DNA of 64,000 nucleotides. Origin: Candidatus Aquiluna sp. UB-MaderosW2red. Lineage in GTDB: Bacteria; Actinomycetota; Actinomycetes; Actinomycetales; Microbacteriaceae. Positions within the stretch are counted from its first letter, which is position 1; every line of letters begins with the position of its first letter. Below, piece by piece: positions 5,686-32,708 of the stretch. Below the pieces are notes generated by a model. That model was given only the letters and a program-made list of their open reading frames with translations, did no database searches and was not told where the DNA came from. The position numbers and the translations under genes are program-made. Where the stretch lies: positions 248,001 through 312,000 of the forward strand of contig NZ_LT627734.1 in assembly GCF_900100865.1 (NCBI RefSeq), read 5' to 3'.

Positions 5686-6013
5686 CAACCCTGTTCTGTA
5701 AATAAGCTGGTCGGCCTAACTTCAATCAATGCATCAACGGCATGGTTTGCATTAAAAACCTCGTTACTTGCCGGCGACATCGGCTCTGCGAGGACAGAGA
5801 ACGGTAAAGAAAAAAAGACAAAATTCTTATCTTGGACCCTCCCAAGAATCCTCTAGCGTAGGAAATTTCAATTGCGGTTTTTGCCGAAAATTGAGAGCGA
5901 ATGTTAGCTTTGTTCCCAACGCACGGCCACGGATTCATTACGTATTTTTGCGACACGAATTAATCTTTCTTCAACCCTCTTGTGCTTTAGCATTCGCGGA
6001 CGCACACTGTATC
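5686..6013 (+). other. Gene-free leader region before the EamA gene
   Basis: A stretch of 328 nt without a supportable gene. The EamA frame is open through it from 5768, but the translated part is not membrane-like and looks unlike any DMT family N-terminus. Two hairpins are visible: CCTCG (5759-5763) with CGAGG (5789-5793) enclosing GCCG/CGGC (5770-5773 and 5781-5784), and TCTTGG/CCAAGA near 5831-5848. It may be a long 5' leader. Confidence 0.5.
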
Positions 6014-7012
6014 GTGCGCAGAACAATCAACCCACCTAACGGTTGGGTACTTCAGTACTTTTTGCTTGCTTTCGTGTGGGGTTCTTCGTTCGCCTACACC
6101 GAGGCTGGCCTTTCTATAACAAGCCCAATTGGGATAACTGCCACGAGGCATATCATCGGATCTTTGGCACTTGCGGTGCTGTTGTTGATTCTTGGACAGC
6201 TTCCTCGGTTGAGGAAATTACCGAGCCAGCTAGTGCGAAGACTCTTTGTGCTCGCAATGCTTTTGAACGTTATTCCCGGAACACTCTTTGCTTTTGCTCA
6301 AAACCACGTATCGACGGTTATTGCCGCCATTATCAACTCGGCAACGCCAATCATGACCCTTGTGATGATTGCTGTTGTCTTCCGGCAAGAAAAGCTAATT
6401 CCAAGGCAGATTATTGGTCTTTTTACTGGCCTAGTAGGCGCGCTGATTGCTCTCGGAGTCGGTTTTAGCGACCTTGGCGAAAACGAGCCGATTGGCGTGC
6501 TGGCCCTAATCCTGGCCATCAGTTGCTATGGATTCGCAATTCCGTATGCCAGAAATAAGGTTACTCCGCTTGGATTTTCACCAATGATTATGGCTCACGT
6601 GCAGGTGCTTTTGGCTGCCGTGGTTCTAACGGTGCTTTTTGTCATAGAGGTCAGCTTTTTGGGGGTTCCCGCATTCACCACTCCAAGCAGCCCCTTGATT
6701 CTTGGGCAAGTTTTGATTCTCGGGCTGGGAACGGGAATTGCTTATATTTGGCACTTCCAAGTCCTAGAACGCGCCGGATCGGCAATCGCTAGCTCGATAA
6801 CTTACCCAACCCTGGTGGTATCTCTAATTATTGGTTGGGTTGTGCTTTCTGAACCGTTCAGTTGGAATATGCCACTGGGAGCCCTGGTAATCGCGTTGGG
6901 CTCGGTTATTACTCAACGTATCCGAGTTGTGCGGAGGCGGCAGCGCTCACCTGCTTCACGATCTCACCAACCTGGTGAAGGTGGGGCCCAATTCGAGTCT
7001 TTGGAGCACTGA
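6014..7012 (+). CDS. EamA/DMT-family transporter
   Basis: A 332-residue inner-membrane protein with ten hydrophobic helices in two EamA repeats, beginning at NGWVLQYFLLAFVWGSSF. That opening is typical of drug/metabolite-transporter proteins that export amino acids or other metabolites. The start GTG at 6014 is chosen because the helix begins about 10 residues later; upstream in-frame sequence is not membrane-like. The C-terminal 30 residues (Arg-rich, then RSHQPGEGG) extend beyond the last helix and overlap the convergent IclR gene by 104 nt. The substrate is unknown. Confidence 0.8.
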   Translation: MRRTINPPNGWVLQYFLLAFVWGSSFAYTEAGLSITSPIGITATRHIIGSLALAVLLLILGQLPRLRKLPSQLVRRLFVLAMLLNVIPGTLFAFAQNHVSTVIAAIINSATPIMTLVMIAVVFRQEKLIPRQIIGLFTGLVGALIALGVGFSDLGENEPIGVLALILAISCYGFAIPYARNKVTPLGFSPMIMAHVQVLLAAVVLTVLFVIEVSFLGVPAFTTPSSPLILGQVLILGLGTGIAYIWHFQVLERAGSAIASSITYPTLVVSLIIGWVVLSEPFSWNMPLGALVIALGSVITQRIRVVRRRQRSPASRSHQPGEGGAQFESLEH

Positions 7013-7766
7013 CGTTTATGACTGCAACAATCAGACCGGTGGCGTCTCTGATTGGTGCAGAAGCCCCAACCAGGCCTGGCTCAAATTCCTCATCCACTAG
7101 CGCATAGCCCTGTCGCCTCACCACCGTTAGTTCCTTCAATAGGTCTTCGAGGTTTCTGACCTTGGATTTTATTAACGGAATTGGGTTGTCCACTGAATTC
7201 ATTGCGGCGATTCCCGGGGGCAGTGCATTTTCGGATCGGACCACCAGGGTGTCACCTGCATGATCGGCATACCATCTTCTCACTTCGGGCTCCGACCAGT
7301 CGCTCAGCAAAGCGCGACCTGATGAGGTTGGGGCAGCCGCAACGGAGACGCCCTCCCAACCCACACCACGAAAAGCACTGGGAGACAGTTCCGACTTCAG
7401 GGTGAGTACGTTTCCACCCCTTAGGACGCAAAGATGAGCGGTTTCATGGGTGAGACCCACCACCTGCTTTAAATATTTGCTGGCCTGCTTGACCAAATTC
7501 GCTTCACTAGTTTTAGCCGCCAGAGCATAAATTTGATAACCCAGGCTGTATTTGCCTGACTCGCGGTCGCGCTCCACGAATCCCGAGTCCGCCAAGGTCG
7601 CAAGTGTCCTAGAGATTTGACCCTTATCTCTGGCCGAAAGCTCAGCCACTCGATTTACACCCAAACCAACGGAGTCGATGGCCTCTCTCGAGCCGAGAAC
7701 CTCTAAAACCTCCAGATCGCGAATTAGCCCAGAGACGTTTCTTCTTTGACTCACGGCGCTTGGCAT
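6909..7766 (-). CDS. IclR-family transcriptional regulator (module 1)
   Basis: A 285-residue regulator. The N-terminal winged helix (about residues 12-75) carries GLGVNRVAELSARDKGQISR, and a C-terminal IclR effector (GAF-like) domain follows. IclR proteins typically control a neighbouring catabolic operon through a small-molecule effector. The ATG at 7764-7766 is preferred because GGTGGGG lies 6-12 nt upstream; ATG 7781 has no such site. It is divergent from the OpuC-type importer and catabolic genes starting at 7893, which are its probable targets. It is clearly paralogous to the IclR gene at 31773-32612. Confidence 0.85.
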   Translation of the reverse strand: MPSAVSQRRNVSGLIRDLEVLEVLGSREAIDSVGLGVNRVAELSARDKGQISRTLATLADSGFVERDRESGKYSLGYQIYALAAKTSEANLVKQASKYLKQVVGLTHETAHLCVLRGGNVLTLKSELSPSAFRGVGWEGVSVAAAPTSSGRALLSDWSEPEVRRWYADHAGDTLVVRSENALPPGIAAMNSVDNPIPLIKSKVRNLEDLLKELTVVRRQGYALVDEEFEPGLVGASAPIRDATGLIVAVINVSAPKTRIGPHLHQVGEIVKQVSAAASAQLGYVE

Positions 7767-7838
7767 TAGTTCCCCACCCATCTTGTTTATGCGATTGTTA
7801 CCTAATTATGATGACATACTAACAACTCCAATTGCGTC

Positions 7839-7869
7839 AGTTGCAACTCCTACCTAGATTCCCTATATC
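7839..7869 (+). promoter_or_regulatory. Promoter and palindrome ahead of importer 1
   Basis: TTGCAA (7841-7846), a 17-nt spacer and TATATC (7864-7869) form a candidate promoter. The -35 lies inside the perfect palindrome AGTTGCAACT (7839-7848). The overlap suggests a regulator site, plausibly for the divergent IclR protein. Confidence 0.5.
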
Positions 7870-7892
7870 TAATCAATGAGGAGGTGGGGCCA

Positions 7893-8558
7893 GTGGGAAA
7901 TTACGACCTAGGGCTTTGGATCCCTTTCATGATTGACAAGTTCGATGAGATCCTCGAACTCAGTGCAGAGCACGTGATTGCCGTTCTTGTTTCGCTCTCA
8001 ATCGCGGCTGTCTTCGGCGTAGCAACCGGCTTGCTTGTTTGGCAACGACCGATTGCTCGTTCTCTTGCAATCGCCACAACCGGCGTGATCCTCACAATCC
8101 CCTCGATGGCCCTTTTGGCACTGATGATTCCAACATTCGGGCTCGGTTGGCTTCCAACGATTGTGGCCTTGAGCCTCTACTCACTTTTGCCAATCGTTCG
8201 AAACACCGTGGTTGGCCTTCGTGAAGTACCACTTGCCGTTATGGAGTCGGCCAAGGGAATGGGCATGAGCAAGACCAAGGTCCTTTTTAAGATTCAGCTC
8301 CCAATGGCTTGGCCTGTGATCATCACCGGGCTTCGAGTTGCCACCCAGCTAGCCATCGGGATCGCAGCAATCGCAGCTTATGTGGCCGGCCCCGGACTTG
8401 GCGAATACATCTTCAAAGGCCTTTCGAGCCTCGGAGCAAAAAACGCCTTGAACTTCGCCCTCACCGGCACTGTAATGATTGTGATCATCGCCTTGTTGTT
8501 CGACGCCTTGTTTGCCGCAATATCCAGACTAACCACCTCAAAGGGGATTCGTGCCTGA
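7893..8558 (+). CDS. OpuC/ProU-type ABC importer permease (1a)
   Basis: A 221-residue inner-membrane permease with about six helices and the binding-protein-dependent loop VMESAKGMGMSKTKVLFKIQLPMAWPVI that docks on the ATPase. It belongs to the quaternary-amine or osmolyte (OpuC, ProW, YehW) group. The start GTG at 7893 follows GAGGAGG with an 8-nt gap; GTG at 7884 would lie within that site. It is the first gene of the importer set, and its stop overlaps the ATPase start by 8 nt, indicating coupling. Placement before catabolic enzymes suggests uptake of a growth substrate rather than only an osmolyte. Confidence 0.87.
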   Translation: MGNYDLGLWIPFMIDKFDEILELSAEHVIAVLVSLSIAAVFGVATGLLVWQRPIARSLAIATTGVILTIPSMALLALMIPTFGLGWLPTIVALSLYSLLPIVRNTVVGLREVPLAVMESAKGMGMSKTKVLFKIQLPMAWPVIITGLRVATQLAIGIAAIAAYVAGPGLGEYIFKGLSSLGAKNALNFALTGTVMIVIIALLFDALFAAISRLTTSKGIRA

Positions 8559-9543
8559 GAAAAAAGCCACCAGTGGAGCATCCATTGAACTAATTGATGT
8601 ATCAAAGGTTTATCCAAACCAGCCAGAACCTGCGGTTGAGAACTTCAACATGCTGGTCAACCCGGGTGAGTTAGTGATGCTGGTTGGACCCTCGGGTTGC
8701 GGCAAGACCACCACCATGAAGATGATCAACCGCATCATTCAGCCAAGCTCGGGGGTCATCAAAATTGACGGCGAAGACACCGCCTCTTTGGATGAGAATC
8801 TTTTGCGACGCCGCATCGGATACGTCATTCAGCAAATTGGTCTTTTCCCGCACCTAACTATTGCCGAGAACGTCGCAATCGTCCCGAAACTTTTGGGCTG
8901 GACCAAGGATGAAACCCACTCTCGTGTCGATGAAATGCTGGCACTGGTCGAGTTGGATCCTAAGGAATTCGGGGGTCGCTACCCTCGCCAGCTCTCTGGC
9001 GGACAGCAACAAAGAGTCGGAGTCGCCAGGGCTTTGGCAGCCGACCCGCCCGTGATGTTGATGGATGAACCATTTGGCGCGACTGACCCGATTACTCGCG
9101 AGAAACTGCAGCAAGAGTTTCTCAGACTTCAGGCGTCAATCGGCAAAACCATAGTATTTGTGACCCACGACTTTGAAGAGGCAATCAAGCTTGGTGACCG
9201 GATCGCGGTCTTGTCAAAACGCAGCAAGATCGAGCAGTTTGACACCCCTGCAAACATTTTGACCAACCCCGCTTCCGATTATGTTGCTTCGTTTATCGGT
9301 GAGGGTGCGGCGCTAAAGCGCCTCGCCTTGATGTCGGTGGATTCGGCCATGCGCACTGGAGGCGCGGAATCGAAGATCTCCGTTTTGGCCGACTCTAACC
9401 TGAGGGCGGCCCTGGATGCGATTGTTCTTTCGGGTGGTAGGGCAGTGTCAGTCAAGGATGCGAGCGGCAAAATTATCGGAAACATCTCTGTGGAGGCAAT
9501 TTCTAATGCCCTGGGTGCGGACGTCTCAGGAATCGGCCGCTAA
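8551..9543 (+). CDS. OpuC/ProV-type ABC importer ATPase (1)
   Basis: A 330-residue ABC ATPase energising the importer. It shows Walker A (GPSGCGKTT), Q-loop (IQQIGLFPH), signature (LSGGQQQR), Walker B (VMLMDEPF) and H-loop (VTHDFEEA). After residue 240 only a short tail remains that resembles half of a CBS pair. The paralogue at 34330 has a longer C-terminal regulatory region, so this copy seems reduced. In OpuC-type systems CBS domains sense ionic strength; their reduction would fit a nutrient transporter. The start is GTG 8551, overlapping the permease. Confidence 0.9.
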   Translation: MPEKKATSGASIELIDVSKVYPNQPEPAVENFNMLVNPGELVMLVGPSGCGKTTTMKMINRIIQPSSGVIKIDGEDTASLDENLLRRRIGYVIQQIGLFPHLTIAENVAIVPKLLGWTKDETHSRVDEMLALVELDPKEFGGRYPRQLSGGQQQRVGVARALAADPPVMLMDEPFGATDPITREKLQQEFLRLQASIGKTIVFVTHDFEEAIKLGDRIAVLSKRSKIEQFDTPANILTNPASDYVASFIGEGAALKRLALMSVDSAMRTGGAESKISVLADSNLRAALDAIVLSGGRAVSVKDASGKIIGNISVEAISNALGADVSGIGR

Positions 9544-9545
9544 TT

Positions 9546-10334
9546 ATGGAAATCCAGGCAGCCAAAGACGTATCAACCGCCTACTCCCAGCCTTCTGATA
9601 GAAGAGGTAAGTACTTCACAGCCAAAAGATTTGGCACGCCGGTCCTGATTTTGGTCGCCCTCGGGTCACTTTTAGCATTTTTATACCTGCGCGGTGAACC
9701 GGATGCCATTGAGATCTTTGCGCTGAACTGGGAATACATGCTCGCTCGAGTCGACGAGCATATCCGAATCTCGGTCTTCTCCGCAGTCGTAGTAGCTGCG
9801 ATTGCCGTTCCACTGGGTATCGCAGTGAGCCGGTCCAAGTCCAAGGTCGCCACCGTAGTTGTTTTAGGGTTGGCAAATATCGGGCAGGCCACCCCTGCAG
9901 TTGGCGTAATCATTTTGCTGGCTTTGATCCTGGGAATCGGCTGGCCCACCGCAGTGATTGCACTGGTGCTTTACGGCCTATTGCCGGTATTGCGAAACAC
10001 CATTGTTGGAATCTCGCAGATCGACCCGAATATCGTCGAGAGTGCCAGGGGAATGGGCATGCGCAGCTCGCAGGTTCTGTTTCGCGTCGAATTACCACTT
10101 GCGGTGCCAGTGATCTTGGCTGGCTTTAGGACCGCTTTGGTTTTTAGTGTTGGTGTGGCAACTATTGCCACATTCATCAATGCCGGTGGCTTGGGGGAGG
10201 TAATCGTGGTGGGCCTGAAGCTCTCCCGACCTGCAGTGCTGCTCACCGGTGCAGTAGTGGTTTCTTGCATCGCCTTATTACTTGACTGGATAGCCGGTCT
10301 GGTGGAAGACGCGCTGAGACCAAAAGGCGTTTAG
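9546..10334 (+). CDS. OpuC/ProU-type ABC importer permease (1b)
   Basis: A 262-residue second permease. A cytoplasmic N-terminal stretch of about 35 residues precedes six or so helices. The ATPase-docking loop reads IVESARGMGMRSSQVLFRVELP. It is paralogous to the permease at 7893 and forms the heterodimeric channel with it. It starts with ATG two nt after the ATPase stop. The arrangement permease-ATPase-permease-binding protein differs from the binding-protein-first order of the second importer at 32709-36219. Confidence 0.88.
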   Translation: MEIQAAKDVSTAYSQPSDRRGKYFTAKRFGTPVLILVALGSLLAFLYLRGEPDAIEIFALNWEYMLARVDEHIRISVFSAVVVAAIAVPLGIAVSRSKSKVATVVVLGLANIGQATPAVGVIILLALILGIGWPTAVIALVLYGLLPVLRNTIVGISQIDPNIVESARGMGMRSSQVLFRVELPLAVPVILAGFRTALVFSVGVATIATFINAGGLGEVIVVGLKLSRPAVLLTGAVVVSCIALLLDWIAGLVEDALRPKGV

Positions 10335-10398
10335 CAACAAGCACTTCGATAGATAGTTCCACTTAAACACCAACCCAACTAATAAACAAGGAGCATTC

Positions 10399-11361
10399 AT
10401 GAATAGCGTCAAATCCGCTTGGGCCGCGTCAGCGTTAGTCGCCTCCCTAGCACTACTTACTGGTTGTGCCGCAGGCACAACCACCGCTGAAACCACAGCT
10501 GCTGGCGAGACCGAAACGGCAGCAGAGGCACTTCCTCTAGAGGGGCTATCCGGGACAATTGGTGCCAAGGACTTCTCTGAGCAGTACATCCTGGGCAACA
10601 TGGTCAGCATTCTTCTAAACGAGAATGGTGCATCAACTGACTACTCGACGATCGTTGGTTCAGCAAACGTTCGAACCGCGCTAGAGGCTGACGAGTTCTT
10701 GGGCTACTGGGAATACACCGGAACCTCATGGTTGTCATATAACTTGCAGGATGCACCAGTGGTCGGAGTTCAGGCTCAATACGACGCAGTTGTTGAGCTA
10801 GATGCTGCCAAGGGCATTGCCTGGTTAAACGGCGCCGCCTTTAACAACACCTATGCATTTGCAATCAGGTCCGAGAAGGCCGCAGAGCTTGGAGTTACCA
10901 AGCTTTCCGACCTTGCTGCCCTTGATGCTGCGGAGCAGACCTTCTGCATCGAGTCCGAGTTCGCGGCCCGCCCAGATGGTTGGGCCGGAGTTCAGACTGC
11001 TTATGGTCTAGCCAATGCGAAGACCGTAACCTTGGATACCGGTGCGATTTATGCGGTAACCGATGAGGGCAAGCAGTGCAACTTTGGTGAGGTATTTGCA
11101 ACTGACGGACGCATCGCGGCCCTAGACCTATTGGTCTTGACCGACGACAAGTCCTTCTTCCCTGTTTACCAGGGCGCATTCACCTTGAAGCAGTCAACCC
11201 TGGACGCCTACCCAGCACTAGCTGATATCGTCAACGGCTTGACCGCTTTGCTCACCGATCAGGTAATGCAGTCACTGAACGCAAAAGCTGATGTTGATGG
11301 CGAAGACCCAGAAGACATCGCTCGTCAGTTCTTGATCGAGCAAGGCCTAATCCAGGGCTAA
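10399..11361 (+). CDS. OpuC-type substrate-binding lipoprotein (1)
   Basis: A 320-residue binding protein with a lipoprotein signal (LLTGC, Cys at about residue 23), a Thr/Ala/Glu linker, and the OpuAC/OsmF-type fold. Motifs include GTIGAKDFSEQYILGNM, GYWEYTGTSW and FGEVFATDGRIAALDL. It would sit on the outer membrane face and deliver substrate to the two permeases. A clear AAGGAG lies 8 nt before ATG 10399. Aromatic residues near the EYTGT motif fit a cationic (quaternary-amine-like) ligand, but the ligand is not determined. Confidence 0.88.
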   Translation: MNSVKSAWAASALVASLALLTGCAAGTTTAETTAAGETETAAEALPLEGLSGTIGAKDFSEQYILGNMVSILLNENGASTDYSTIVGSANVRTALEADEFLGYWEYTGTSWLSYNLQDAPVVGVQAQYDAVVELDAAKGIAWLNGAAFNNTYAFAIRSEKAAELGVTKLSDLAALDAAEQTFCIESEFAARPDGWAGVQTAYGLANAKTVTLDTGAIYAVTDEGKQCNFGEVFATDGRIAALDLLVLTDDKSFFPVYQGAFTLKQSTLDAYPALADIVNGLTALLTDQVMQSLNAKADVDGEDPEDIARQFLIEQGLIQG

Positions 11362-11392
11362 TAAGCCTTCAAACAATAAGTAAGGAACTGAG

Positions 11393-11902
11393 ATGACCCT
11401 CAAAATGCAGATCGGCGAATCATTCGTTGGAGAAGGCGTGAACGCCGCACACATCAACACCGTGTTCGGTGATCGTGAGGGTCCCACGGGAGTGGCTTGG
11501 GCTACGGCCTTAGCCACTCCCTCTCAGGGACACGTTCCATTTGTGGCAATTCTTCGGCCCTCGTTGCCGGTGAAGCCACTCACCCTTTTTGTCACCAAAG
11601 CCGCACCCGGCAGTGACACCCACGGCAACATGATTTGGGGCCCGGCTCAGGCCGGTGTGTCTTCAGGGGTGGCTGACGCGGTAGAGGCCGGTCATATAAA
11701 TAAAGACGAGGTAGACCTGGGTTGCATAATCGTTGCGGTTTGGGTAAACCCAGAAGCTAATGATGCCGACTTGGTCTATAAAAATAATCGAGAAGCAACT
11801 TTCACGGCACTGAAAAATGGCGCTGGTGCGCTGCCGAGTATCGAAGATGTCCTTGCCAACAAGGCTTTACCGTTCAACCCCTTCTACACCGCAAAGGACT
11901 AG
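11393..11902 (+). CDS. Formaldehyde-activating-enzyme (Fae)-like protein
   Basis: A 169-residue soluble protein with the full length and fold signature of Fae. The N-terminal QIGESFVGEG is followed by AAHIN with the conserved catalytic-type His (residue 20), then HVPFVAILRPSLPVKP, WGPAQAGVSSGVADAV and the C-terminal NREATFTALKNG helix. Authentic Fae condenses formaldehyde with tetrahydromethanopterin. No methanopterin gene is visible here and actinobacteria are not known for that cofactor, so the chemistry is probably different: another C1 carrier, or a lyase or aldolase step. AAGGAA precedes ATG 11393. It lies between the importer and the dehydrogenases, separated from the next gene by 3 nt. 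Confidence 0.8.
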   Translation: MTLKMQIGESFVGEGVNAAHINTVFGDREGPTGVAWATALATPSQGHVPFVAILRPSLPVKPLTLFVTKAAPGSDTHGNMIWGPAQAGVSSGVADAVEAGHINKDEVDLGCIIVAVWVNPEANDADLVYKNNREATFTALKNGAGALPSIEDVLANKALPFNPFYTAKD

Positions 11903-11905
11903 ATT

Positions 11906-13009
11906 TTGAAGATCACCGACATCAAGCTCACACGGATGCGCTTGCCACTTGACCCACCCTTTTTTGCAGCTTGGGACCCAAACCCTAGAACCGAGTTCCT
12001 CGCGACATTGGTCGAGGTTCACACCGACCAGGGCGTGGTGGGCTACGGATCTGGTGACAGCATGGATGGCTTTGAGGGCTACCAGCATCTATTTATCGGC
12101 ACCAACCCGATGGAAATTCTGAATCAGGTCAAAAGAATCGAAACAATTAATTTTCACGGTGGCCGCTACTGGCCTCTTGAGGCGGCCTTCTGGGACATCA
12201 TCGGCAAGGTAGCAAACTTGCCAGTCGCAACATTATTTGGCGGATCCACGGATCGGTTATTGGCCTACGCCTCATTTGGTGAATTGCGTAAGCCTAAAGA
12301 CCGTGCACTGGCAGCTGAAAAAGCCCGCGAAAAGGGTTTCAGGGCATGCAAGATTCGCATCGCCCGAGACCAATTGGATGAAGGTATCGAAGCGGTCGCC
12401 GCAACAAGAAAAGCCCTCGGAGAGGACTTCGAGATAGCAGTAGATATGAATCAGATGTGGCGAATGTCGGGAGATATCGAAAACGCCCTCCCGCTATCGA
12501 AGGTTCGAAGCGTCGCGCAAAGGCTTAGTGAACTCGGTGTGCTGTGGATTGAAGAACCGCTTCCACAAACCGACATAGCGGGCATTAAATCGATTCGTCA
12601 AGCGCTGGGTGTTCAAATTTCTGGCGGTGAGATGGTTCGCTCTATGGCTGAGCTCGCTCACCTGATTGAGCAAGACACTTTTGATATTTACCAGCCAGAC
12701 GTTGTCCTGGCGGTTGGAATGTTGCGTGCTCGCCAGGCTTCGGAAATGGCTGCCTTGAAGCACCGCAGATTCACGCCACACTCTTGGACAAACGGCCTGG
12801 GTGTTTTGGCGAATCTTCAAGTGGCCGCCGGTGTTGGCTCAGGGCCATACTTCGAATTCCCCTATGATCCGCCGGGTTGGACCATCGAGCGGAGGGACTT
12901 TTTTATAAAACCGATTGATATTGATTCAGAGGGCTATGTTCACGTGCCAAAAGCACCGGGTCTTGGTGCCGAAATTGATCTTGACGCTGTGCAAAGGTTT
13001 AGGGTCTAG
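11906..13009 (+). CDS. Mandelate racemase/enolase-superfamily enzyme
   Basis: A 367-residue enzyme of the MR subgroup. Metal ligands are at D180 (VDMNQ), E216 (WIEEP) and E242 (GGE), with a His-Asp dyad at H292 (PHSWT) and D265 (QPDVV). The other catalytic face reads K149-I-R151, where many members have K-x-K. These enzymes abstract the alpha proton of a carboxylate and then racemise, epimerise or dehydrate. Likely substrates are a hydroxy acid, sugar acid or betaine. The start TTG at 11906 follows the Fae-like stop by 3 nt and ends two nt before the aldehyde dehydrogenase, so it is firmly within the operon. The specific reaction is unknown. Confidence 0.82.
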   Translation: MKITDIKLTRMRLPLDPPFFAAWDPNPRTEFLATLVEVHTDQGVVGYGSGDSMDGFEGYQHLFIGTNPMEILNQVKRIETINFHGGRYWPLEAAFWDIIGKVANLPVATLFGGSTDRLLAYASFGELRKPKDRALAAEKAREKGFRACKIRIARDQLDEGIEAVAATRKALGEDFEIAVDMNQMWRMSGDIENALPLSKVRSVAQRLSELGVLWIEEPLPQTDIAGIKSIRQALGVQISGGEMVRSMAELAHLIEQDTFDIYQPDVVLAVGMLRARQASEMAALKHRRFTPHSWTNGLGVLANLQVAAGVGSGPYFEFPYDPPGWTIERRDFFIKPIDIDSEGYVHVPKAPGLGAEIDLDAVQRFRV

Positions 13010-13011
13010 GG

Positions 13012-14520
13012 ATGAATAAATTTACGAAAGAGCAATGGCTCCAAAAAGCCAAAGACCTAAAACCTAAAGCAGACTTATTTATTAATGGTGAATTTGTTCC
13101 GGCAGCCTCCAACGAGCGGTTTGAAACCCTCTCACCAAGAGATGGATCGGTTATAACTACCGTTGCGCGTGGCGCAGAAATAGACATCGATAACGCAGTC
13201 CGGATCGCCCATCAGCGTTTCGAAGAGGGTGTTTGGTCGAGGATAGACCCTAGAGAGCGCCAAAAGGCCCTTTATCGACTGAGCGAATTAATGCTGGAAA
13301 ATGCAGCCGAGCTTGCTCTTTTAGAAGCCATCGAAACAGGGCACCCAATTGGTGATGCGCTCAACGTCGATGTCCCATCGGCAGCGAGAACCTATCGTTG
13401 GTATGCAGAAGCAATCGACAAGGTTTATGACCAGATCGCCCCGGCACCAGTCTCGGCACTCGCCCTCATCTCAAGAGAGCCGTTGGGAGTTATCGGGGCG
13501 GTTGTGCCATGGAACTATCCGCTAATTATTTCTGCTTGGAAGCTGGCTCCAGCGCTAGCCGCTGGCAACTCCGTGGTTCTAAAGCCCTCGGAAGACACCA
13601 ACTTATCTTCACTTCGTTTAGCAGAATTGGCGATTGAAGCGGGGATTCCAGCCGGAGTACTAAATGTTGTCACCGGCTACGGAGCCGAAGCCGGGCAGGC
13701 GCTTGGGCGACACCCGCTAGTTGACAAAATAACCTTCACAGGGTCGCCTGGAGTCGGAAAGATGTTCCAGAAATACGCTGGTGAATCTAACGGCAAGCAG
13801 GTGGCGCTTGAGCTGGGTGGAAAATCCCCACACATAGTTTTTGAGGATGTTGAAGATATCGAAGCCTGCGCCTCGGCAATTGCTTGGGGCATATTTTATA
13901 ACGCTGGACAAACCTGCCACGGTGGTTCTCGATTGCTGGTTCACGAGGCAATAAAGGACCGCTTATTAGAAGCCGTCATCAGGGTTGGCGCAGCTTTGGT
14001 AACTGGGGATCCCATGGATCCCAAGACCCAGGTGTCAGCAATCGTAAACAAAAAACAGCACACTCGGGTTCTGGAATATTTGGAGATAGCAAAACAAGAA
14101 AACGCCAACGTGATATTTGGCGGCAATGCTCATCAGCCGGTGGCCGGTGGCTACTTTATTGAGCCCACGATTCTAGATAACGTGAAGATAAACAGCCGAA
14201 TTGCTCAAGAGGAAATATTCGGCCCCGTGCTAGCAGTCACAACCTTCAAGACTGCTAAAGAAGCGGTGGAGCTCGCCAATGGAACCGAATATGGTTTGGC
14301 CGCGAGTGTTTGGACCCAAGACATCACCCTTGCTCATAAGGTGGCCAAAGCTGTTCGAGCCGGCACCGTTTGGGTAAATACCTACGATGTCTCAGATATC
14401 ATCGTGCCCTTTGGTGGCTTCAAGAACTCTGGTTTTGGCAGGGACCGCTCACTACATGCACTCGATTCTTATACCGCACTAAAAACAACCTGGATAAACC
14501 TAGGCAACGAACCCATCTAA
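13012..14520 (+). CDS. Aldehyde dehydrogenase, PuuC-like
   Basis: A 502-residue NAD(P)-dependent aldehyde dehydrogenase. The active-site Cys lies in NAGQTCHGG and the general-base Glu in LELGGKSP, with the cofactor motif FTGSPGVGK. The N-terminal block (LFINGEF) and the C-terminal block (GFGRDRSLHALDSYTALKT) strongly resemble gamma-glutamyl-gamma-aminobutyraldehyde dehydrogenase (PuuC), a family that also oxidises 3-hydroxypropionaldehyde and other small aldehydes. ATG 13012 follows the previous stop by two nt. It probably converts an aldehyde intermediate of the imported compound to the acid. Confidence 0.88.
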   Translation: MNKFTKEQWLQKAKDLKPKADLFINGEFVPAASNERFETLSPRDGSVITTVARGAEIDIDNAVRIAHQRFEEGVWSRIDPRERQKALYRLSELMLENAAELALLEAIETGHPIGDALNVDVPSAARTYRWYAEAIDKVYDQIAPAPVSALALISREPLGVIGAVVPWNYPLIISAWKLAPALAAGNSVVLKPSEDTNLSSLRLAELAIEAGIPAGVLNVVTGYGAEAGQALGRHPLVDKITFTGSPGVGKMFQKYAGESNGKQVALELGGKSPHIVFEDVEDIEACASAIAWGIFYNAGQTCHGGSRLLVHEAIKDRLLEAVIRVGAALVTGDPMDPKTQVSAIVNKKQHTRVLEYLEIAKQENANVIFGGNAHQPVAGGYFIEPTILDNVKINSRIAQEEIFGPVLAVTTFKTAKEAVELANGTEYGLAASVWTQDITLAHKVAKAVRAGTVWVNTYDVSDIIVPFGGFKNSGFGRDRSLHALDSYTALKTTWINLGNEPI

Positions 14521-14543
14521 TAACGCCAACCTAAAGGGACAAA

Positions 14544-15500
14544 ATGTTCGACAATCAAAACGCAGTTATCGGGTTTATCGGCCTCGGGAACATGGGTAGC
14601 GGTATGACCAAAAATCTGCAAAAAAACGGCTTCAAGCTAATCGTTCACGACGTGCGCAAGGAGGCTGCGGCAGACCTATTAGCGGCCGGGGCAGTTTGGG
14701 CCGATACTCCAGCAGAAGTCGCTGCTCATAGTGACGTGGTTATCACAATGCTGCCAACCCCAAAGCTGCTCGATTTTGTGGCAATGGGGCCCGATGGAAT
14801 ATTGACCGGTATGAAAAAAGATGGCTGGTGGGTCGACATGTCAACCTCGGTCCCCGAGGTGACCGAGCGAGCTCGCAGTTTCTCGGAGGAGTTGCAAGTA
14901 CACATCGTTGATGCGCCTGTGGCCGGCATGTCGGCTGGAGCTCGCAATGGCACATTGCAGATTTTTGTGGGATCCACAGAAGAAGAGTTTTTGGCCTTAA
15001 AGAACGTTTTCGAGGGCATGGGTGACCCTAAGAAAATACTCCACGTTGGCAAGGCGGGCGCAGGCTACGCAGTGAAGTTAATGATTAATCAACTATGGTT
15101 TTCCCACCTGGTTGCAACCGCTGAAGTGCTGGCAATTGGGGTCAAGGCCGGGGTCGAACTTGATGTTTTGGTGAAGTCTCTAGTTGCGTCTCCTGCCAAC
15201 TCTAACTTTTTAGAACACGATGTTCTAAGCGTTCTGAACCACTCAGATTACGACGAGGGATTTGCCATCGACCTTGCCTGCAAGGACCTCGGTCTATCGA
15301 TCGACCTTGCGCGTTCTGTTTCGGTGCCAGTTGAACTATCGGCAGTTGTTGAACAGATTTATCGCAGAGCAAAGTCTCAATATGGTGATAAGGCTGGAGA
15401 GATGACACCGATCAAACTTTATGAAGATCTAATTGGCCAAGATTTGAGGATGGCAATCCACGAAGATATAATTGGTCAAGATTTGAGGCTGGCAATATGA
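14544..15500 (+). CDS. 3-Hydroxyisobutyrate-dehydrogenase-like enzyme
   Basis: A 318-residue beta-hydroxyacid dehydrogenase. The N-terminal Rossmann motif is GFIGLGNMGSG (residues 10-20), the substrate loop is DAPVAGMSAGARNGTL, and the catalytic Lys lies in GKAGAGYAVKLM. The family oxidises 3-hydroxyisobutyrate, tartronate semialdehyde, sulfolactaldehyde or similar compounds. AAAGGGA precedes ATG 14544. The C-terminus is odd: the last 26 residues are two near-identical 13-residue units (EDLIGQDLRMAIH, then EDIIGQDLRLAI and the stop), from a 39-bp tandem duplication. The stop overlaps the next start (ATGA), so the genes are coupled. Confidence 0.87.
   Translation: MFDNQNAVIGFIGLGNMGSGMTKNLQKNGFKLIVHDVRKEAAADLLAAGAVWADTPAEVAAHSDVVITMLPTPKLLDFVAMGPDGILTGMKKDGWWVDMSTSVPEVTERARSFSEELQVHIVDAPVAGMSAGARNGTLQIFVGSTEEEFLALKNVFEGMGDPKKILHVGKAGAGYAVKLMINQLWFSHLVATAEVLAIGVKAGVELDVLVKSLVASPANSNFLEHDVLSVLNHSDYDEGFAIDLACKDLGLSIDLARSVSVPVELSAVVEQIYRRAKSQYGDKAGEMTPIKLYEDLIGQDLRMAIHEDIIGQDLRLAI
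15423..15500 (+). repeat. 39-bp in-frame tandem duplication
   Basis: Copy 1 spans 15423-15461 and copy 2 spans 15462-15500, both starting GAAGAT, with only a few base differences. The second copy ends exactly at the stop codon of the host gene and contains the start of the next gene. Confidence 0.85.
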
Positions 15501-16672
15501 GTGAAGGTCGAAACCTTTCTGATTACGAACTCTTTTTAGACCCAAAACCACCCACCCACTTTGGTGTCGGAGCCGTTACTAAGGTTGGAGATTTAGCTAA
15601 GTCCCAAGGGGCAACGAAGGCCCTGATAGTTACAGATTCCTTTTTGGCTAAGTCGGAGATCTTACTAAAGGTCGAAGCTTCACTCAGGGCCAGTGGAATC
15701 TCTGTTCAGGTGTTCGACGGTGTAACGCCGAACCCAACCACAGCTTGCGTGGACGCGGGATCCGATGTTGCAAGGGATTCAGGTTGCGATATTTTGATTG
15801 CGTTGGGCGGGGGATCTTCCATGGATACCGCAAAGGGCGTCTCGCTCGGAGCACTTAACCCGCAACGCGGACTCGGCCTTGACTATAGGACTGAGTTTGA
15901 GCAGCCGGGTTTACCAATCATTGCAATTCCAACCACGGCCGGAACCGGGTCTGAGGTGAATGCTTTTGGAGTTATCACCGATGAGGCCAGCCACACACGC
16001 TTTTATGTTGGACATTCTTCGGCCTTGGCGAAAGCGGCAATCCTTGATCCAGAACTAACTTTGGGCCTGCCTCCAAAATCAACCGCAGCTACCGGCATGG
16101 ACGTATTGGTTCATGCTGTCGAGTCATATATATCAATTAGGTCTAATCCATATTCGGATGGTATTGCGCTAAAGACAATAGAAACCGTGAATCAGTTTCT
16201 TGAAATTGCAGTTAGTGATGGCTCAGATTTAGAAGCCAGATCTCAGATGCTTTTGGCTTCGCACGTGGTCGGAGTTGGTTTCTCACACACCGGTTTGGGC
16301 CTAGTCCACGGGATCGGCCACTCTCTTGGAGGGCACTTCAATATTCCACACGGAGTAGCCCTTTGTTTAGTTCTAGAAGAGACCCTGAAATTCAATCTTT
16401 CTAATTGCACTGTCCGGATGGCACAGATTAGCTTCGCTTTGGGGGTAGGAAGCACTCAATCCGACGACGCAGCAAATGCTTCGGCAAGCATCGAGCGCAT
16501 TGCGGATTTAGTGGAAAAGGTCGGCCTCAAGGCCAGGCTGTCCGATTTTGGAATCACCGCCTCCGATATTCCGATGATTGCTCAGACTGCGGCGATGGAC
16601 GCGGTAACTCTAAACAATCCAATCAATCCCACAGTTCAGCAAATTCAAGAGATTCTAGAAAGAGTGTTATGA
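15497..16672 (+). CDS. Iron-type (group III) alcohol dehydrogenase
   Basis: A 391-residue alcohol dehydrogenase of the iron-activated family. The nucleotide-binding motif is GGGSSMDTAKG. Metal-ligand histidines appear in GMDVLVHAVESY and in GLVHGIGHSLGGHFNIPHG. Family members act on 4-hydroxybutyrate, 1,3-propanediol, lactaldehyde or 3-hydroxypropionate-type substrates. Paired with the SSADH-like gene that follows, a hydroxyacid-to-semialdehyde-to-diacid route is plausible. Both ends overlap the neighbours by 4 nt (ATGA), so it is co-translated with them. Confidence 0.88.
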   Translation: MSEGRNLSDYELFLDPKPPTHFGVGAVTKVGDLAKSQGATKALIVTDSFLAKSEILLKVEASLRASGISVQVFDGVTPNPTTACVDAGSDVARDSGCDILIALGGGSSMDTAKGVSLGALNPQRGLGLDYRTEFEQPGLPIIAIPTTAGTGSEVNAFGVITDEASHTRFYVGHSSALAKAAILDPELTLGLPPKSTAATGMDVLVHAVESYISIRSNPYSDGIALKTIETVNQFLEIAVSDGSDLEARSQMLLASHVVGVGFSHTGLGLVHGIGHSLGGHFNIPHGVALCLVLEETLKFNLSNCTVRMAQISFALGVGSTQSDDAANASASIERIADLVEKVGLKARLSDFGITASDIPMIAQTAAMDAVTLNNPINPTVQQIQEILERVL

Positions 16673-18147
16673 GCATCAGCCAGGCGCAAGAGCAGAGCGT
16701 TTTAGACCTAGTTCCTACCGGCGTATACATTTCGGGAATCTGGCGCGATTCATCGGATGGAAAGACAATCAACGTAGAGGATCCAGCAACCGGGAAGACC
16801 CTGGTAAAAGTCGCCGATGCCTCTTATGAGGATGGCCAAGAGGCAATTAGCGCCGCCCATGAAGCTCAAGAGGCTTGGGGTAGAACCGCACCTCGCTTCC
16901 GGGCAGAGATTCTTCGCTCAGCTTTCGAGAGAGTGACTGAACTCAGTGATGAGTTCGCGACCCTAATGTCCTTAGAGATGGGTAAGCCTTTTGCGGAGGC
17001 CAAGGGTGAGGTTGCCTATGGCAGCGAGTTCCTTAGGTGGTTTTCTGAGGAGGCGGTTCGGGCCTACGGTCGCTATTCAATTGCACCCGATGGCAACAAC
17101 CGAATTATGGTGCTTAAAAAGCCGGTTGGCCCAAGTCTGTTTATCACTCCGTGGAACTTCCCACTGGCGATGGCCACTCGTAAGATTGCGCCTGCGATTG
17201 CTGCCGGTTGCACAATGATTTTGAAGCCCGCCGCCCTTACTCCCCTCACCTCCCTTTTATTTGCCAAGGTTCTCGAAGAAGTCGGACTTCCGAAGGGCGT
17301 CCTGAACATAATCACGACCTCAAGGCCGGGTGAGGTAACTGGCCCAATTATTAAAGACGAGCGACTCAGGAAACTTTCTTTCACTGGCTCAACCCAGGTT
17401 GGCCGAAAATTAATAGCCGATTCCGCGGACCAGGTGTTGAGGGTCTCAATGGAACTTGGTGGTAACGCCCCGCTCTTGGTTTTCGAGGACGCGGACATTG
17501 ATAAGGCGGTTGAGGGGACCATCATCGCGAAGCTTAGAAATATGGGAGAGGCTTGCACCGCCGCTAACCGCATTCTGGTTCACGAATCTATTGCCGCAGA
17601 GTTCTCCCAAAAGCTAGTCAACAAAATGAGCACCCTAAAACTGGCCCGAGGCCTCGAAGAGGGCGCGAATATTGGCCCGCTTATCGAAGAGAAGGCACGC
17701 GTTGCAGTCCACGCGCTAGTGCAGGAGGCTGTGGCAAAGGGGGCAACGGTGCTCACGGGTGGTCAGATTCCGGAGGGTGAAGGATTCTTCTATCCGCCAA
17801 CCGTGCTGACAAACGTCCCAGCCACCGCGAGCATTCTTAGAAACGAAATCTTTGGCCCAGTCGCGCCGATCATAACTTTCAAAGATGAGGCGGAGGCAAT
17901 AGCTATTGCCAACGACACCGAATACGGCCTGGTTGCATATGCCTTTACTAACGATCTAAATCGCGGCCTGCGCTTGGCTGAGAAATTAGAGGTTGGGATG
18001 TTGGGTTTGAACACCGGCCTGGTTTCAAACGCCGCAGCACCTTTTGGTGGTGTGAAATCCTCCGGCATGGGTCGTGAGGGTGGAGCGGAAGGTATCTCCG
18101 AGTACCTGGAAACCGTTTATGTCGGGATTGCTAACCCGATGGCTTAG
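16669..18147 (+). CDS. Succinate-semialdehyde-dehydrogenase-like enzyme (GabD type)
   Basis: A 492-residue aldehyde dehydrogenase of the GabD class. The catalytic Cys is in GEACTAANR, the base Glu in MELGGNAP, the cofactor motif is FTGSTQVGR, and the C-terminal signature is APFGGVKSSGMGREGG. It is expected to oxidise a semialdehyde (succinate or a related 3- or 4-carbon semialdehyde) to the diacid. The N-terminal leader of about 15 residues is longer than in E. coli GabD. It overlaps the alcohol dehydrogenase gene by 4 nt and is the last gene of the coupled set. The GabD lookalike sulfolactaldehyde dehydrogenase is an alternative identity. Confidence 0.87.
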   Translation: MSISQAQEQSVLDLVPTGVYISGIWRDSSDGKTINVEDPATGKTLVKVADASYEDGQEAISAAHEAQEAWGRTAPRFRAEILRSAFERVTELSDEFATLMSLEMGKPFAEAKGEVAYGSEFLRWFSEEAVRAYGRYSIAPDGNNRIMVLKKPVGPSLFITPWNFPLAMATRKIAPAIAAGCTMILKPAALTPLTSLLFAKVLEEVGLPKGVLNIITTSRPGEVTGPIIKDERLRKLSFTGSTQVGRKLIADSADQVLRVSMELGGNAPLLVFEDADIDKAVEGTIIAKLRNMGEACTAANRILVHESIAAEFSQKLVNKMSTLKLARGLEEGANIGPLIEEKARVAVHALVQEAVAKGATVLTGGQIPEGEGFFYPPTVLTNVPATASILRNEIFGPVAPIITFKDEAEAIAIANDTEYGLVAYAFTNDLNRGLRLAEKLEVGMLGLNTGLVSNAAAPFGGVKSSGMGREGGAEGISEYLETVYVGIANPMA

Positions 18148-18162
18148 ACCCGAACAAGGGCC

Positions 18163-18168
18163 TAATCT
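18163..18168 (+). promoter_or_regulatory. -10 box, leaderless ABM gene
   Basis: TAATCT, then TGACAC (6 nt) and ATG 18175. The same hexamer and spacing recur before the prephenate dehydratase and methyltransferase genes. Confidence 0.6.
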
Positions 18169-18174
18169 TGACAC

Positions 18175-18459
18175 ATGCCTAATTGCACGGTGGTCGCCAC
18201 CTTTAGTCCAAAACCTGAGCACCTTCAAGCGGTATCTGAATTTCTCCTTGAGATTGCTAAAGAGGTTAGACAAGAGCCTGGCTGCGAGTACTACGACCTC
18301 TATCAAGAGGTCTCGGGAAGGCTAATGTTCATTGAGGCCTGGGAATCTAGAGAGTTGTGGCAAAACCACAACGATGCCCCGTCGGTGGCAAAGCTGCGTG
18401 CCTTCATTGAAAACAAGCTGCTTGAGCCACTTCTGGTTCAAGAAATGTATCGACTTTAA
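18175..18459 (+). CDS. Antibiotic biosynthesis monooxygenase (ABM)-domain protein
   Basis: A 94-residue dimeric alpha/beta-barrel protein of the ABM/YgiN type: a CTVVATFSPKPEHLQAV strand-helix start, EPGCEYYDLYQE, and FIEAWESRELWQNH with the conserved Trp and His. Members are small quinol oxygenases or haem-type oxygenases, and many have no known substrate. It follows the catabolic operon by 27 nt but has its own TAATCT box 6 nt before ATG 18175, so its link with that pathway is positional only. It converges with the Blh gene. Confidence 0.8.
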   Translation: MPNCTVVATFSPKPEHLQAVSEFLLEIAKEVRQEPGCEYYDLYQEVSGRLMFIEAWESRELWQNHNDAPSVAKLRAFIENKLLEPLLVQEMYRL

Positions 18460-18478
18460 GCTTCGAGCATGCAGAACG

Positions 18479-19456
18479 CTAGTTCGTATTAACCACGGAC
18501 TTTTTCTTAGAAAAGCCCATAGCTTTGGCGTCTAGCCTTGAGGTTAGGGCCATGTGTGGGATCGTGAGTGCCCAAACCACAGCCAATAAGAGCCACAATA
18601 GGTCGGCACCGAGGTCAAAGTTTCCGGTGATGCCCAAAACTACTGTGAATCCAATCACGATGGCTAGTGCTGGAAGCCCTGCCGCCACTGCCAACCAAAA
18701 TGCCCTAAGGGGTTTTTGGCGCTCATGGGCCTTGATAGAGCTAGGAAGTTCTAGGGTCAGCCTGCCGGTGTGTCTAAGCGCGTGCCAAAAACCAAAATAA
18801 AAGGCGAAGGCTACAAGTGGGGGTGCTATCAAGCTAATCGCCAAGAGCGCCGCCAGGTCTATTGCCTCAGCGCGGCGACCCTTGAAGAGCATTACTGAAG
18901 TGACAAATAGATTTAGAGTCACCACCACCCAGAAAAGCTGCTCTGTGATCGGGTTGGCCCAGCCACTAAGAATTGGATTTACAGTCTCGAGTGCCTCGGT
19001 TGACCGCGAGTTCAATAATGGGATAAAGACCGGCGTGAAGCCTGCCGCCAAGGCAAATAAGACCTTCGGAAAGCCAGTTCTATTTGAGCGAGCATCCATC
19101 TCAGAAATAAATGAGGCGTCTCCAATTCCGAAGTGCAATGCGCTGATCAGGACAATCAGTTGAAAACCGATCAGATTATTGGACAAAATGAACCAAATGC
19201 ACAGGCCGGTGACCGTTAGATAGCCAATTAGAAAAAGCGCCATTTTGAAAAATTTAAACTTAGGCACAGTGATCAGGTGGTCAACCGCTCCATGCGGGAT
19301 GCCTATAGCCAGTGCGGTGATGGCTAACACCACCTGCCAGGAAATGCTGTGTGGCAACAAAATATTTAGAGGGATGGAAATAATGATTCCAGCGAAAATG
19401 CTGTATCGGGAGACGGTCCGAAGCTGAACCAATAGCCTTAGTTGAGACTCAAGCAC
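18479..19456 (-). CDS. blh: Brp/Blh-type beta-carotene 15,15'-dioxygenase
   Basis: A 325-residue multi-helix membrane protein with the Blh signature GIPHGAVDH near residue 54 and further His residues (ALHFGIGD, FWHALRHTG) that bind iron. It cleaves beta-carotene into two retinals, the chromophore of microbial rhodopsins. The GTG start at 19454-19456 is supported by a TAGAAT box (19463-19468) exactly 6 nt upstream. It is divergent from the lycopene cyclase genes with only 26 nt between starts, so precursor cyclisation and cleavage are encoded back to back. No rhodopsin gene lies in the window. Family assignment is firm. Confidence 0.9.
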   Translation of the reverse strand: MLESQLRLLVQLRTVSRYSIFAGIIISIPLNILLPHSISWQVVLAITALAIGIPHGAVDHLITVPKFKFFKMALFLIGYLTVTGLCIWFILSNNLIGFQLIVLISALHFGIGDASFISEMDARSNRTGFPKVLFALAAGFTPVFIPLLNSRSTEALETVNPILSGWANPITEQLFWVVVTLNLFVTSVMLFKGRRAEAIDLAALLAISLIAPPLVAFAFYFGFWHALRHTGRLTLELPSSIKAHERQKPLRAFWLAVAAGLPALAIVIGFTVVLGITGNFDLGADLLWLLLAVVWALTIPHMALTSRLDAKAMGFSKKKSVVNTN

Positions 19457-31759: not shown

Positions 31760-31766
31760 AGGTAAA

Positions 31767-31772
31767 ACTCTA
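31767..31772 (-). promoter_or_regulatory. -10 box of the SDR gene
   Basis: TAGAGT on the minus strand, 7 nt before ATG 31759, immediately after the stop of the IclR gene. Confidence 0.45.
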
Positions 31773-32612: not shown

Positions 32613-32618
32613 GAGGCA

Positions 32619-32648
32619 ACAATACCGAGTAGTTGACCTATGGTCAAC
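32619..32648 (-). promoter_or_regulatory. Promoter of IclR gene 2 with overlapping operator palindrome
   Basis: On the minus strand TTGACC (32642-32647), a 17-nt spacer and TATTGT (32619-32624). The perfect 7-3-7 inverted repeat GTTGACC-TAT-GGTCAAC (32632-32648) covers the -35 and lies between the divergent genes. Confidence 0.72.
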
Positions 32649-32708
32649 CCAATTAGGCGCAGGCGGAACTACCTCTTTACCCTTAGCAAATACCTTAAGG
32701 AGAGATAT

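Follow-up and report, generated by a model that had tools for sequence, protein, structure and literature searches.

Introduction

OpuAC-type importers normally serve osmoprotection, and in Bacillus choline is oxidised by GbsB and GbsA. Two further described activities concern ethers: AGPS-like enzymes act at the ether on C1 of dihydroxyacetone phosphate (DHAP), and 3,6-anhydro-L-galactonate cycloisomerase is an enolase-superfamily enzyme opening an ether. When phosphate is scarce, many algae, fungi and bacteria exchange their phospholipids for betaine lipids, and the headgroup of one such lipid, diacylglyceryl-N,N,N-trimethylhomoserine (DGTS), is a natural betaine in which a C4 hydroxy acid is joined to glycerol by an ether bond. 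Here we describe an operon at positions 7893-18147 of a 64-kb stretch of DNA from Candidatus Aquiluna sp. UB-MaderosW2red (contig NZ_LT627734.1; the whole stretch of 64,000 nucleotides is called the window), in which an Opu-type importer is followed by enzyme genes of catabolic character. The operon is very probably a catabolic cassette for some betaine-type compound. As its substrate we propose, with somewhat less than even confidence, a betaine built as the glyceryl ether of a C4 hydroxy-betaine, of which glyceryl-N,N,N-trimethylhomoserine, the deacylated DGTS headgroup, would be the most likely.

Organisation and conservation of the operon

A first reading of the window, made from the letters alone (the sequence-only reading), had claimed ten co-directional genes. 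All ten open reading frames (ORFs) were found in the order given, and Pfam and NCBIfam scans placed them in the families named. An additional gene, encoding an IclR-type regulator divergent from the ten, was absent from that reading and is part of the unit. The genome consists of a single contig of 1.66 Mb, and the G+C content of the window is 52%. The features are as follows.

6909-7781, minus strand: IclR-type regulator, divergent (PF01614 75.9 bits, PF09339 22.2 bits)
7782-7892, no strand: divergent intergenic region with the motif CAAC-N5-TTG at 7823-7834 (motif scan)
7893-8558, plus strand: importer permease 1 (BPD_transp_1)
8551-9543, plus strand: importer ATPase, ProV-like (TIGR01186 319.4 bits, cut-off 326.6)
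9546-10334, plus strand: importer permease 2 (BPD_transp_1)
10399-11361, plus strand: binding lipoprotein of the OpuAC family (PF04069 172.4 bits; cage Y106, Y152, F233, Y257 plus R191)
11393-11902, plus strand: Fae-like protein of a non-canonical subfamily (PF08714 170.2 bits; TIGR03126 148.6 bits, cut-off 118.05)
11906-13009, plus strand: enolase-superfamily (mandelate racemase, MR) enzyme (MR_MLE_C 167.2 bits)
13012-14520, plus strand: aldehyde dehydrogenase (ALDH) of KauB/PuuC type (best PDB match KauB 6b4r, E 7e-169)
14544-15500, plus strand: 3-hydroxyisobutyrate-dehydrogenase-family (HIBADH) enzyme (PF03446 and PF14833; PDB 2i9p, E 3e-44)
15497-16672, plus strand: iron-type (group III) alcohol dehydrogenase (FeADH; PF00465 and PF25137; PDB 8zwd, E 2e-75, and lactaldehyde reductase 1rrm, E 1.5e-71)
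16669-18147, plus strand: succinate-semialdehyde-dehydrogenase-type ALDH (SSADH, GabD-like; TIGR01780 559.4 bits, cut-off 646.35; PDB 3jz4, E 1e-145)

From permease 1 through SSADH the genes are separated by -8, 2, 64, 31, 3, 2, 23, -4 and -4 nt. The last five values, those among the enzyme genes, agree with the 2-23 nt or ATGA overlaps read from the sequence, and wider gaps lie ahead of the genes for the binding protein (64 nt) and the Fae-like protein (31 nt). The first GTG of the permease 1 ORF is at 7884; since an AGGAGG stands eight bases 5' of the GTG at 7893, the start at 7893, which the sequence-only reading had used, is the likelier one.

Using a threshold of E 1e-80 or better, MR orthologues were detected in 11 of the 150 family genomes, the window's own included, the other ten being 66-77% identical. 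In nine of these 11, again including its own, the order is identical: the divergent IclR gene, then permease 1, ATPase, permease 2, binding protein, Fae-like protein, MR, ALDH, HIBADH, FeADH and SSADH. Nine new MR-bearing genomes were fetched, eight with this order and a ninth, G419, with a rearranged cluster of 12.5 kb that holds the Fae-like, HIBADH and SSADH genes, a second module (module B, below), the importer and MR; the tenth, G195, had been fetched before and shows the same order up to FeADH, with no SSADH within the stretch. An IclR orthologue occupies the equivalent position in eight of the nine fetched family loci, and the Fae-like gene lies within the cluster in all 11 MR-bearing genomes. 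Two congeners, G406 and G485, have neither the MR gene nor any OpuAC protein, which makes the occurrence of the cassette uneven across the genus. The same order with the same regulator in nine of 11 genomes indicates that the importer is a member of the catabolic cassette, in line with the earlier suggestion that an OpuC/ProU-type importer is dedicated to degradation here.

According to Pfam the importer is complete, consisting of two BPD permeases, an ATPase and an OpuAC binding protein. Alignment of the latter with ProX of A. fulgidus places Y106, Y152, F233 and Y257 at the positions of Tyr63, Tyr111, Tyr190 and Tyr214, which we take to be the cage residues of ProX. They are conserved in 20, 19, 19 and 20 of 20 rows, respectively, among which the window's second importer is counted once and the G419 protein twice. 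As the aromatic cage is retained, the protein probably binds a quaternary amine, which supports the prediction of a cationic or betaine-like substrate. In three genomes (G062, G364 and G403) no OpuAC protein was found besides that of the cluster itself.

Two interchangeable modules

Loci were compared in 44 stretches of up to 20 kb together with the window, giving 44 rows from 43 genomes or records (G147 has two rows), with identity limits of our own choice; nine genomes, eight of them carrying module A and one module B, were added to this table by way of the MR search, and this biases the counts towards module A. A core of Fae-like protein, alcohol dehydrogenase and SSADH was found beside either of two unrelated modules. 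Module A, comprising FeADH, ALDH and MR, is complete in 23 of the 43 loci. Module B, comprising a short-chain dehydrogenase/reductase (SDR), an FGGY kinase and an AGPS-like FAD enzyme, is complete in four (Sinomonas, G147, G419 and G977), and no locus has both modules complete. An HIBADH or aldo/keto reductase gene is present in 31 loci and an SSADH gene in 30, one of the latter (L058) being a fragment.

With the Sinomonas protein as query, the best solved relatives of the module-B FAD enzyme were alkyldihydroxyacetonephosphate synthases (E 6e-46, compared with 2e-31 for glycolate oxidase), and the motif HHHG[IV]GK, located at H615-617 of AGPS, is present in all six FAD-enzyme rows from four genomes. 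At E 1e-100 the enzyme occurs in a single one of 394 genomes of the class (G147, a carrier of the Fae-like gene), and it occurs in four of 36 carriers, G147 included: in three within the Fae cluster, in the fourth (G528) elsewhere. There, at L059:9317-13024, FAD enzyme, SDR and kinase genes are followed by an MFS-like gene (major facilitator superfamily, named by eye), while the Fae cluster of the same genome is a full ten-gene operon with module A. That module B stands apart with a transporter-like gene in G528 indicates that it is a unit; perhaps it serves a general glyceryl-ether pathway in this genome. The module-B kinase matches the xylulokinase and autoinducer-2 (AI-2) kinase models below their cut-offs. 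On a plasmid of Streptomyces clavuligerus, between the Fae-like and HIBADH genes, lies a short sequence with 40% identity to the operon ALDH (L015:10999-11232), apparently what is left of a former module A.

In six genomes of other classes a gene for a HalD-like 2-oxoglutarate (2OG)-Fe(II) oxygenase adjoins the Fae-like gene, with no HIBADH gene in the stretch:

L042:8970-9683, HalD-like 2OG oxygenase gene
L045:2774-3604, HalD-like 2OG oxygenase gene
L046:8987-9817, HalD-like 2OG oxygenase gene
L047:10308-11102, HalD-like 2OG oxygenase gene
L048:5541-6383, HalD-like 2OG oxygenase gene
L049:1754-2593, HalD-like 2OG oxygenase gene

This assignment rests on Pfam for three of the six. The HxD motif is present in the two proteins in which it was read, for which reason the protein is perhaps a hydroxylase rather than a halogenase. 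Oxidative ether cleavage by such an enzyme would yield a semialdehyde directly, which fits the pathway proposed below and proves nothing.

Proposed pathway

Both modules can be read as coherent routes of glyceryl-ether cleavage that free the same alcohol, ROH. As AGPS-like enzymes act at the C1 ether of DHAP, SDR, kinase and AGPS-like enzyme together read as such a cleavage: the SDR would oxidise the C2 hydroxyl of the glyceryl ether to the ketone of a glycerone ether, the kinase would form alkyl-DHAP, and the AGPS-like enzyme would split this into DHAP and ROH. Module A would lead from the glyceryl ether via 3-O-alkyl-glyceraldehyde and 3-O-alkylglycerate to pyruvate and ROH, the last step employing the alpha-proton abstraction and beta-elimination of the enolase superfamily with an alkoxide as leaving group. 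In the shared core ROH would be oxidised to a semialdehyde by HIBADH, or by the aldo/keto reductase in the plasmids, and the GabD-like enzyme would oxidise the C4 semialdehyde.

For the window we infer the following order of reactions. The betaine would be taken up by the Opu-type importer (step 1), FeADH would oxidise the terminal CH2OH of the glyceryl part (step 2), and the KauB-like ALDH would convert the resulting aldehyde to the 3-O-alkylglycerate (step 3), from which MR would abstract the alpha proton and expel the ether oxygen, so that pyruvate and homoserine betaine are released (step 4). The HIBADH-family enzyme would then oxidise homoserine betaine to 4-oxo-2-(trimethylammonio)butanoate (step 5). 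This oxidation would create an acidic C-H beside the carbon that bears the trimethylammonium group, so that trimethylamine can leave; acting as a C-N lyase, the Fae-like protein would free it from the betaine semialdehyde to give fumaric semialdehyde (step 6), which the GabD-like enzyme would oxidise to fumarate (step 7). Overall, glyceryl-trimethylhomoserine would yield pyruvate, fumarate and trimethylamine, with IclR as regulator. Step 6 is the weakest of the scheme; it was assigned to the Fae-like protein because a related enzyme forms a C-N bond at the carbon of an aldehyde. The DGTA headgroup (from diacylglyceryl-hydroxymethyl-trimethyl-beta-alanine), which resembles 3-hydroxyisobutyrate, would be a less likely substrate; DGTS is favoured because a GabD-like enzyme suits a C4 chain. 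The two alcohol and two aldehyde steps had earlier been taken to suggest a branched route. One alcohol/aldehyde pair per part of the molecule does agree with the scheme, and a substrate in two parts, rather than a branch, describes it better.

The operon enzymes

In MR the residues K149-x-R151, D180, E242, D265 and H292 are invariant in all 26 rows (25 genomes); we take them to be the strand-2 lysine, the metal ligands and the His-Asp dyad. The nearest NCBIfam models, those of talarate/galactarate, arabinonate and galactonate dehydratases, score far below their cut-offs: the best named dehydratase reaches 109.1 bits against a cut-off of 500, and none of the 17 models listed attains its cut-off. 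Among solved structures the best match is 3sjn (unassigned, E 5e-34), and 3,6-anhydro-L-galactonate cycloisomerase (5xd9) follows with E 6e-17; no support for this cycloisomerase as a precedent was found in the literature searched.

The ALDH, FeADH and SSADH likewise fall below the cut-offs of the subfamily models. The ALDH scores 581.7 against 850 for PuuC (PRK09847), with KauB as its best PDB match, and FeADH scores 297.9 bits against 550 for the choline dehydrogenase GbsB. For SSADH, which falls short of TIGR01780 as given above, GabD is the best PDB match, and the arginines of 'TRK' and 'R[NG]xG' are present in every row that matched these patterns (30 and 28 of 32 rows, respectively); presumably they hold the carboxylate of a C4 semialdehyde.

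The Fae-like protein

Although the Fae-like protein exceeds the equivalog cut-off of TIGR03126, it is only 33% identical to the solved Fae enzyme, and in a tree a long branch with support 1.0 unites six canonical Fae proteins from five sources, apart from the Fae-like proteins. The two groups differ at six positions. Among 43 Fae-like proteins N22 is found in 42, P43 in 43, H77 in 42, W82 in 40, W117 in 40 and N162 in 42, whereas all six canonical proteins have D, N, Q, F, F and H, respectively; the window protein has neither the Asp at position 22 nor any of the other five canonical residues. The two changes from Phe to Trp would suit a quaternary ammonium ligand.

We also searched for methenyl-tetrahydromethanopterin cyclohydrolase (MCH, PF02289), and found it in none of 39 genomes (37 carriers of the Fae-like gene and the two congeners); as controls, 14 genomes were searched, among which three archaea gave matches. 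In Azoarcus the mch gene lies close to a canonical fae gene. The absence of MCH from all 37 carriers and the distinct subfamily of the Fae-like protein make the known formaldehyde pathway via tetrahydromethanopterin (H4MPT) unlikely (on the role of Fae, see the excerpted text of PMC8153426). The C1-releasing route that the sequence-only reading had considered is not supported by these results; a C1 role by another route is conceivable.

Alternative substrates

Several observations weigh against a glyceryl-ether betaine. Neither module is complete in 16 of the 43 loci, namely four proteobacterial plasmids (with Fae-like protein, SSADH and aldo/keto reductase), the six loci with a HalD-like oxygenase and six others. 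SSADH is missing from the fetched stretch of three module-A loci (G195, G062 and G364), and G419 combines module B with MR while ALDH and FeADH are lacking nearby. In eight loci of one family an MFS gene replaces the importer; those MFS proteins that were scanned score highest with an aromatic-acid model, while the organic-cation model ranks third for L028 and second for L018, and no score reaches its cut-off. Two complete module-A loci from a Rubrobacter-like genus (a guessed label) have no HIBADH and could have another substrate. Finally, the elimination of trimethylamine may need no enzyme, and the step of the Fae-like protein could be a different one.

Among the alternatives, another quaternary or guanidino C4 compound (carnitine-, butyrobetaine- or guanidinobutanoate-like) fares best, although we regard it as unlikely. 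FeADH and the KauB-like ALDH would oxidise an amino-alcohol as GbsB and GbsA treat choline, MR would racemise or dehydrate, and HIBADH and SSADH would complete the C4 chain. The proximity of the ALDH to KauB and the score of FeADH with the GbsB model are in agreement with this, as are the Rubrobacter-like loci, where at L043:6712-12791 and L044:30-9950 the Fae-like and SSADH genes are flanked by genes for an arginase-family protein (agmatinase model), a gamma-aminobutyrate (GABA) permease and a GABA transaminase. Such a compound, however, leaves no role for the AGPS-like enzyme, the kinase and the SDR that replace FeADH, ALDH and MR elsewhere, and among the neighbours read GABA genes adjoin the cluster only in the Rubrobacter-like genus.

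A C1 route, in which the Fae-like protein captures N-methyl-derived formaldehyde for transfer to tetrahydrofolate or another amine while the other enzymes process the demethylated skeleton, is improbable. The protein passes the Fae equivalog cut-off, and the HalD-like oxygenase that adjoins it in six loci and shows HxD in both proteins read could demethylate; yet MCH is absent from the 39 genomes, position 22 and further positions are exchanged as described above, and the ten operon genes include no demethylase or oxygenase family (tetrahydrofolate genes were not searched for). The enzyme treated in PMC5209427 is glutathione-dependent and not relevant here.

Still less can be said for a sugar-acid or polyol pathway with MR as an ordinary acid-sugar dehydratase and an importer drifted to a neutral ligand, a poor candidate in our view. 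It could draw on the dehydratase models nearest to MR and on the sugar-kinase matches of module B, all below cut-off, but the binding protein has retained its quaternary-amine cage, and no sugar-acid aldolase was noticed among the neighbours, which were inspected by eye in clipped sequences and not scanned. It is very improbable that the importer serves osmoprotection and just happens to precede the enzyme genes of an unrelated operon, since its usual role and the published reading of opuABDC genes (see Significance) are countered by the gene order shared by nine family genomes, the three genomes whose sole OpuAC protein is that of the cluster, and the MFS gene in the importer's place in eight loci.

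Other candidates were rejected. The carnitine, dimethylsulfoniopropionate (DMSP), hydroxyproline betaine and sulfonates named by the sequence-only reading do not account for the module swap across loci. A GABA or guanidinobutanoate pathway fits the Rubrobacter-like loci only, oxidation of a 1,4-diol by two pairs of alcohol and aldehyde dehydrogenases gives no function to MR and the importer, and the gene set does not match the known enzymes of the trigonelline, carnitine, DMSP, ergothioneine and hydroxyproline-betaine routes.

Regulation

The motif CAAC-N5-TTG was found in 16 of 25 divergent intergenic regions, compared with 0.2 expected from single-base shuffles, and more precisely in 12 of 14 importer-first and four of 11 Fae-first loci. 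As it was chosen after reading the first 14 regions, only the four of 11 (about 0.08 expected) are a partly independent check, and ten further copies occur elsewhere in the window. Regulation of the operon by IclR is a prediction. A consensus scan of 6800-18600 gave seven promoter-like sites (8.5 in shuffles) and 22 terminator-like sites on both strands, mostly intragenic (12.8 in shuffles, standard deviation 3.4); one terminator-like site, at 18481-18501, lies downstream of the operon.

Distribution and neighbouring genes

The Fae-like query gave 13 matches among the 394 class genomes. Ten of them are strong, at E 1e-50 or better. The other three, two of which contain a stop, are weak and partial (E 4.5e-5 to 8e-4) and were dropped. 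The ten strong loci contain HIBADH in nine cases, FeADH, ALDH and MR in seven, the alternative module in one, OpuAC in five and an MFS transporter in three. As to the neighbourhood search proposed by the sequence-only reading, all 11 MR-bearing genomes of the family have the Fae-like, OpuAC and MR genes in a joint cluster. Further surveys, which share overlapping genomes, detected the Fae-like gene in 12 of 346 genomes of the phylum, in 2 of 297 of the order, in 10 of 200 from the family to which G057 belongs and in 3 of 39 from the class that includes G715. A scan of genome contigs with a single-protein query, where an alignment would reach further, returned Sinomonas only. Of 72,556 plasmid records 68 matched at E 1e-5; the Caballeronia protein matched 25 at E 1e-25, 16 of them from Streptomyces clavuligerus. 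Among phage records no match to the Fae-like protein was found at E 1e-5.

Downstream of SSADH, after 27 nt, a small ABM-domain protein is encoded at 18175-18459 (PF03992, 56.3 bits); it was not counted in the unit, because no similar protein was found at the other loci at E 1e-8. The gene at 18479-19456 resembles, by eye, a Blh/Brp-type beta-carotene dioxygenase and would suit a rhodopsin-bearing aquatic actinobacterium. Convergent to the IclR gene stands a gene named by eye as a DMT/EamA-like exporter, in the window (5768-7012) and in two other loci (L030:3465-4391 and L031:15629-16591; 44-51% mutual identity), and a different DMT/EamA-like exporter adjoins HIBADH in L024 and L026; such a protein might serve to remove waste, for instance an amine, from the cell. 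At 29884-36219 the window contains a further Opu-type importer (binding protein, permease, ATPase, permease) and, divergent from it, a second IclR gene (31773-32612), with 44%, 34% and 61% identity to the operon for IclR, binding protein and ATPase, respectively. This unit adjoins SDR, DoxX-like and dienelactone-hydrolase-like genes (named by eye) and is perhaps a sister system that takes up a different betaine.

Significance

In the literature searched, by titles and the beginnings of abstracts and mostly without subscription papers and preprints, no catabolic route for a betaine-lipid headgroup or homoserine betaine was found and no described pathway was recognised for this gene set, as the sequence-only reading had claimed. 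Excerpts of two studies bear on the supply of such compounds: in one, DGTS replaces phospholipids in Phaeobacter (PMC10132767), and the other measured homoserine betaine as an exometabolite in sea water and, going by the excerpt, did not test its uptake (PMC13403184). It is possible, if doubtful, that the operon represents the first route for microbial use of betaine-lipid headgroups, namely glyceryl-trimethylhomoserine and free homoserine betaine, with at least two swappable ether-cleaving modules, one using an enolase-superfamily ether lyase and the other a kinase and an AGPS-like enzyme, and with a Fae-family protein turned from C1 enzyme to trimethylamine lyase with a putative Trp-lined pocket. 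If true, the genes would be a marker set for the flux of betaine-lipid headgroup carbon and nitrogen, and the pathway would be a new source of trimethylamine. In the excerpt of a study of related aquatic actinobacteria, opuABDC of Luna-1 bacteria is interpreted as osmoadaptation (PMC12422013). Opu genes scored in this way in streamlined aquatic actinobacteria may instead belong to a catabolic operon, as in G062, G364 and G403, which have the cluster's OpuAC only.

Comparison with known systems

The importer resembles osmoprotectant importers of the OpuC/ProU/OsmF type in its two permeases, its ATPase and an OpuAC binding protein with an aromatic cage. It differs in being fixed in a catabolic operon with a divergent IclR gene, and it scores below the model cut-offs for both OsmF (131.4 of 400) and ProV (319.4 of 326.6). 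With GbsB/GbsA the operon shares an iron-type alcohol dehydrogenase and an ALDH in a single operon for a quaternary amine alcohol, to which it adds MR, the Fae-like protein, HIBADH and SSADH, FeADH being well under the GbsB cut-off.

MR agrees with 3,6-anhydro-L-galactonate cycloisomerase and the acid-sugar dehydratases in the positions of the metal ligands and the His-Asp pair, and would share with the former an ether-opening beta-elimination, whereas its overall similarity to them is only distant. The module-B FAD enzyme has in common with AGPS the HHHG[IV]GK motif and an arginine at the position of AGPS Arg419. In contrast to AGPS it is short (486 residues compared with a chain of 658), is clustered with a kinase and an SDR, and would run in the ether-cleaving direction. 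The Fae-like protein belongs to the same Pfam and TIGR03126 families as canonical Fae and has kept His20, Thr64, Lys69, Gly83 and Gln86, which are common to all six canonical proteins, but it departs from them at positions 22, 43, 77, 82, 117 and 162, where the window protein has N, P, H, W, W and N.

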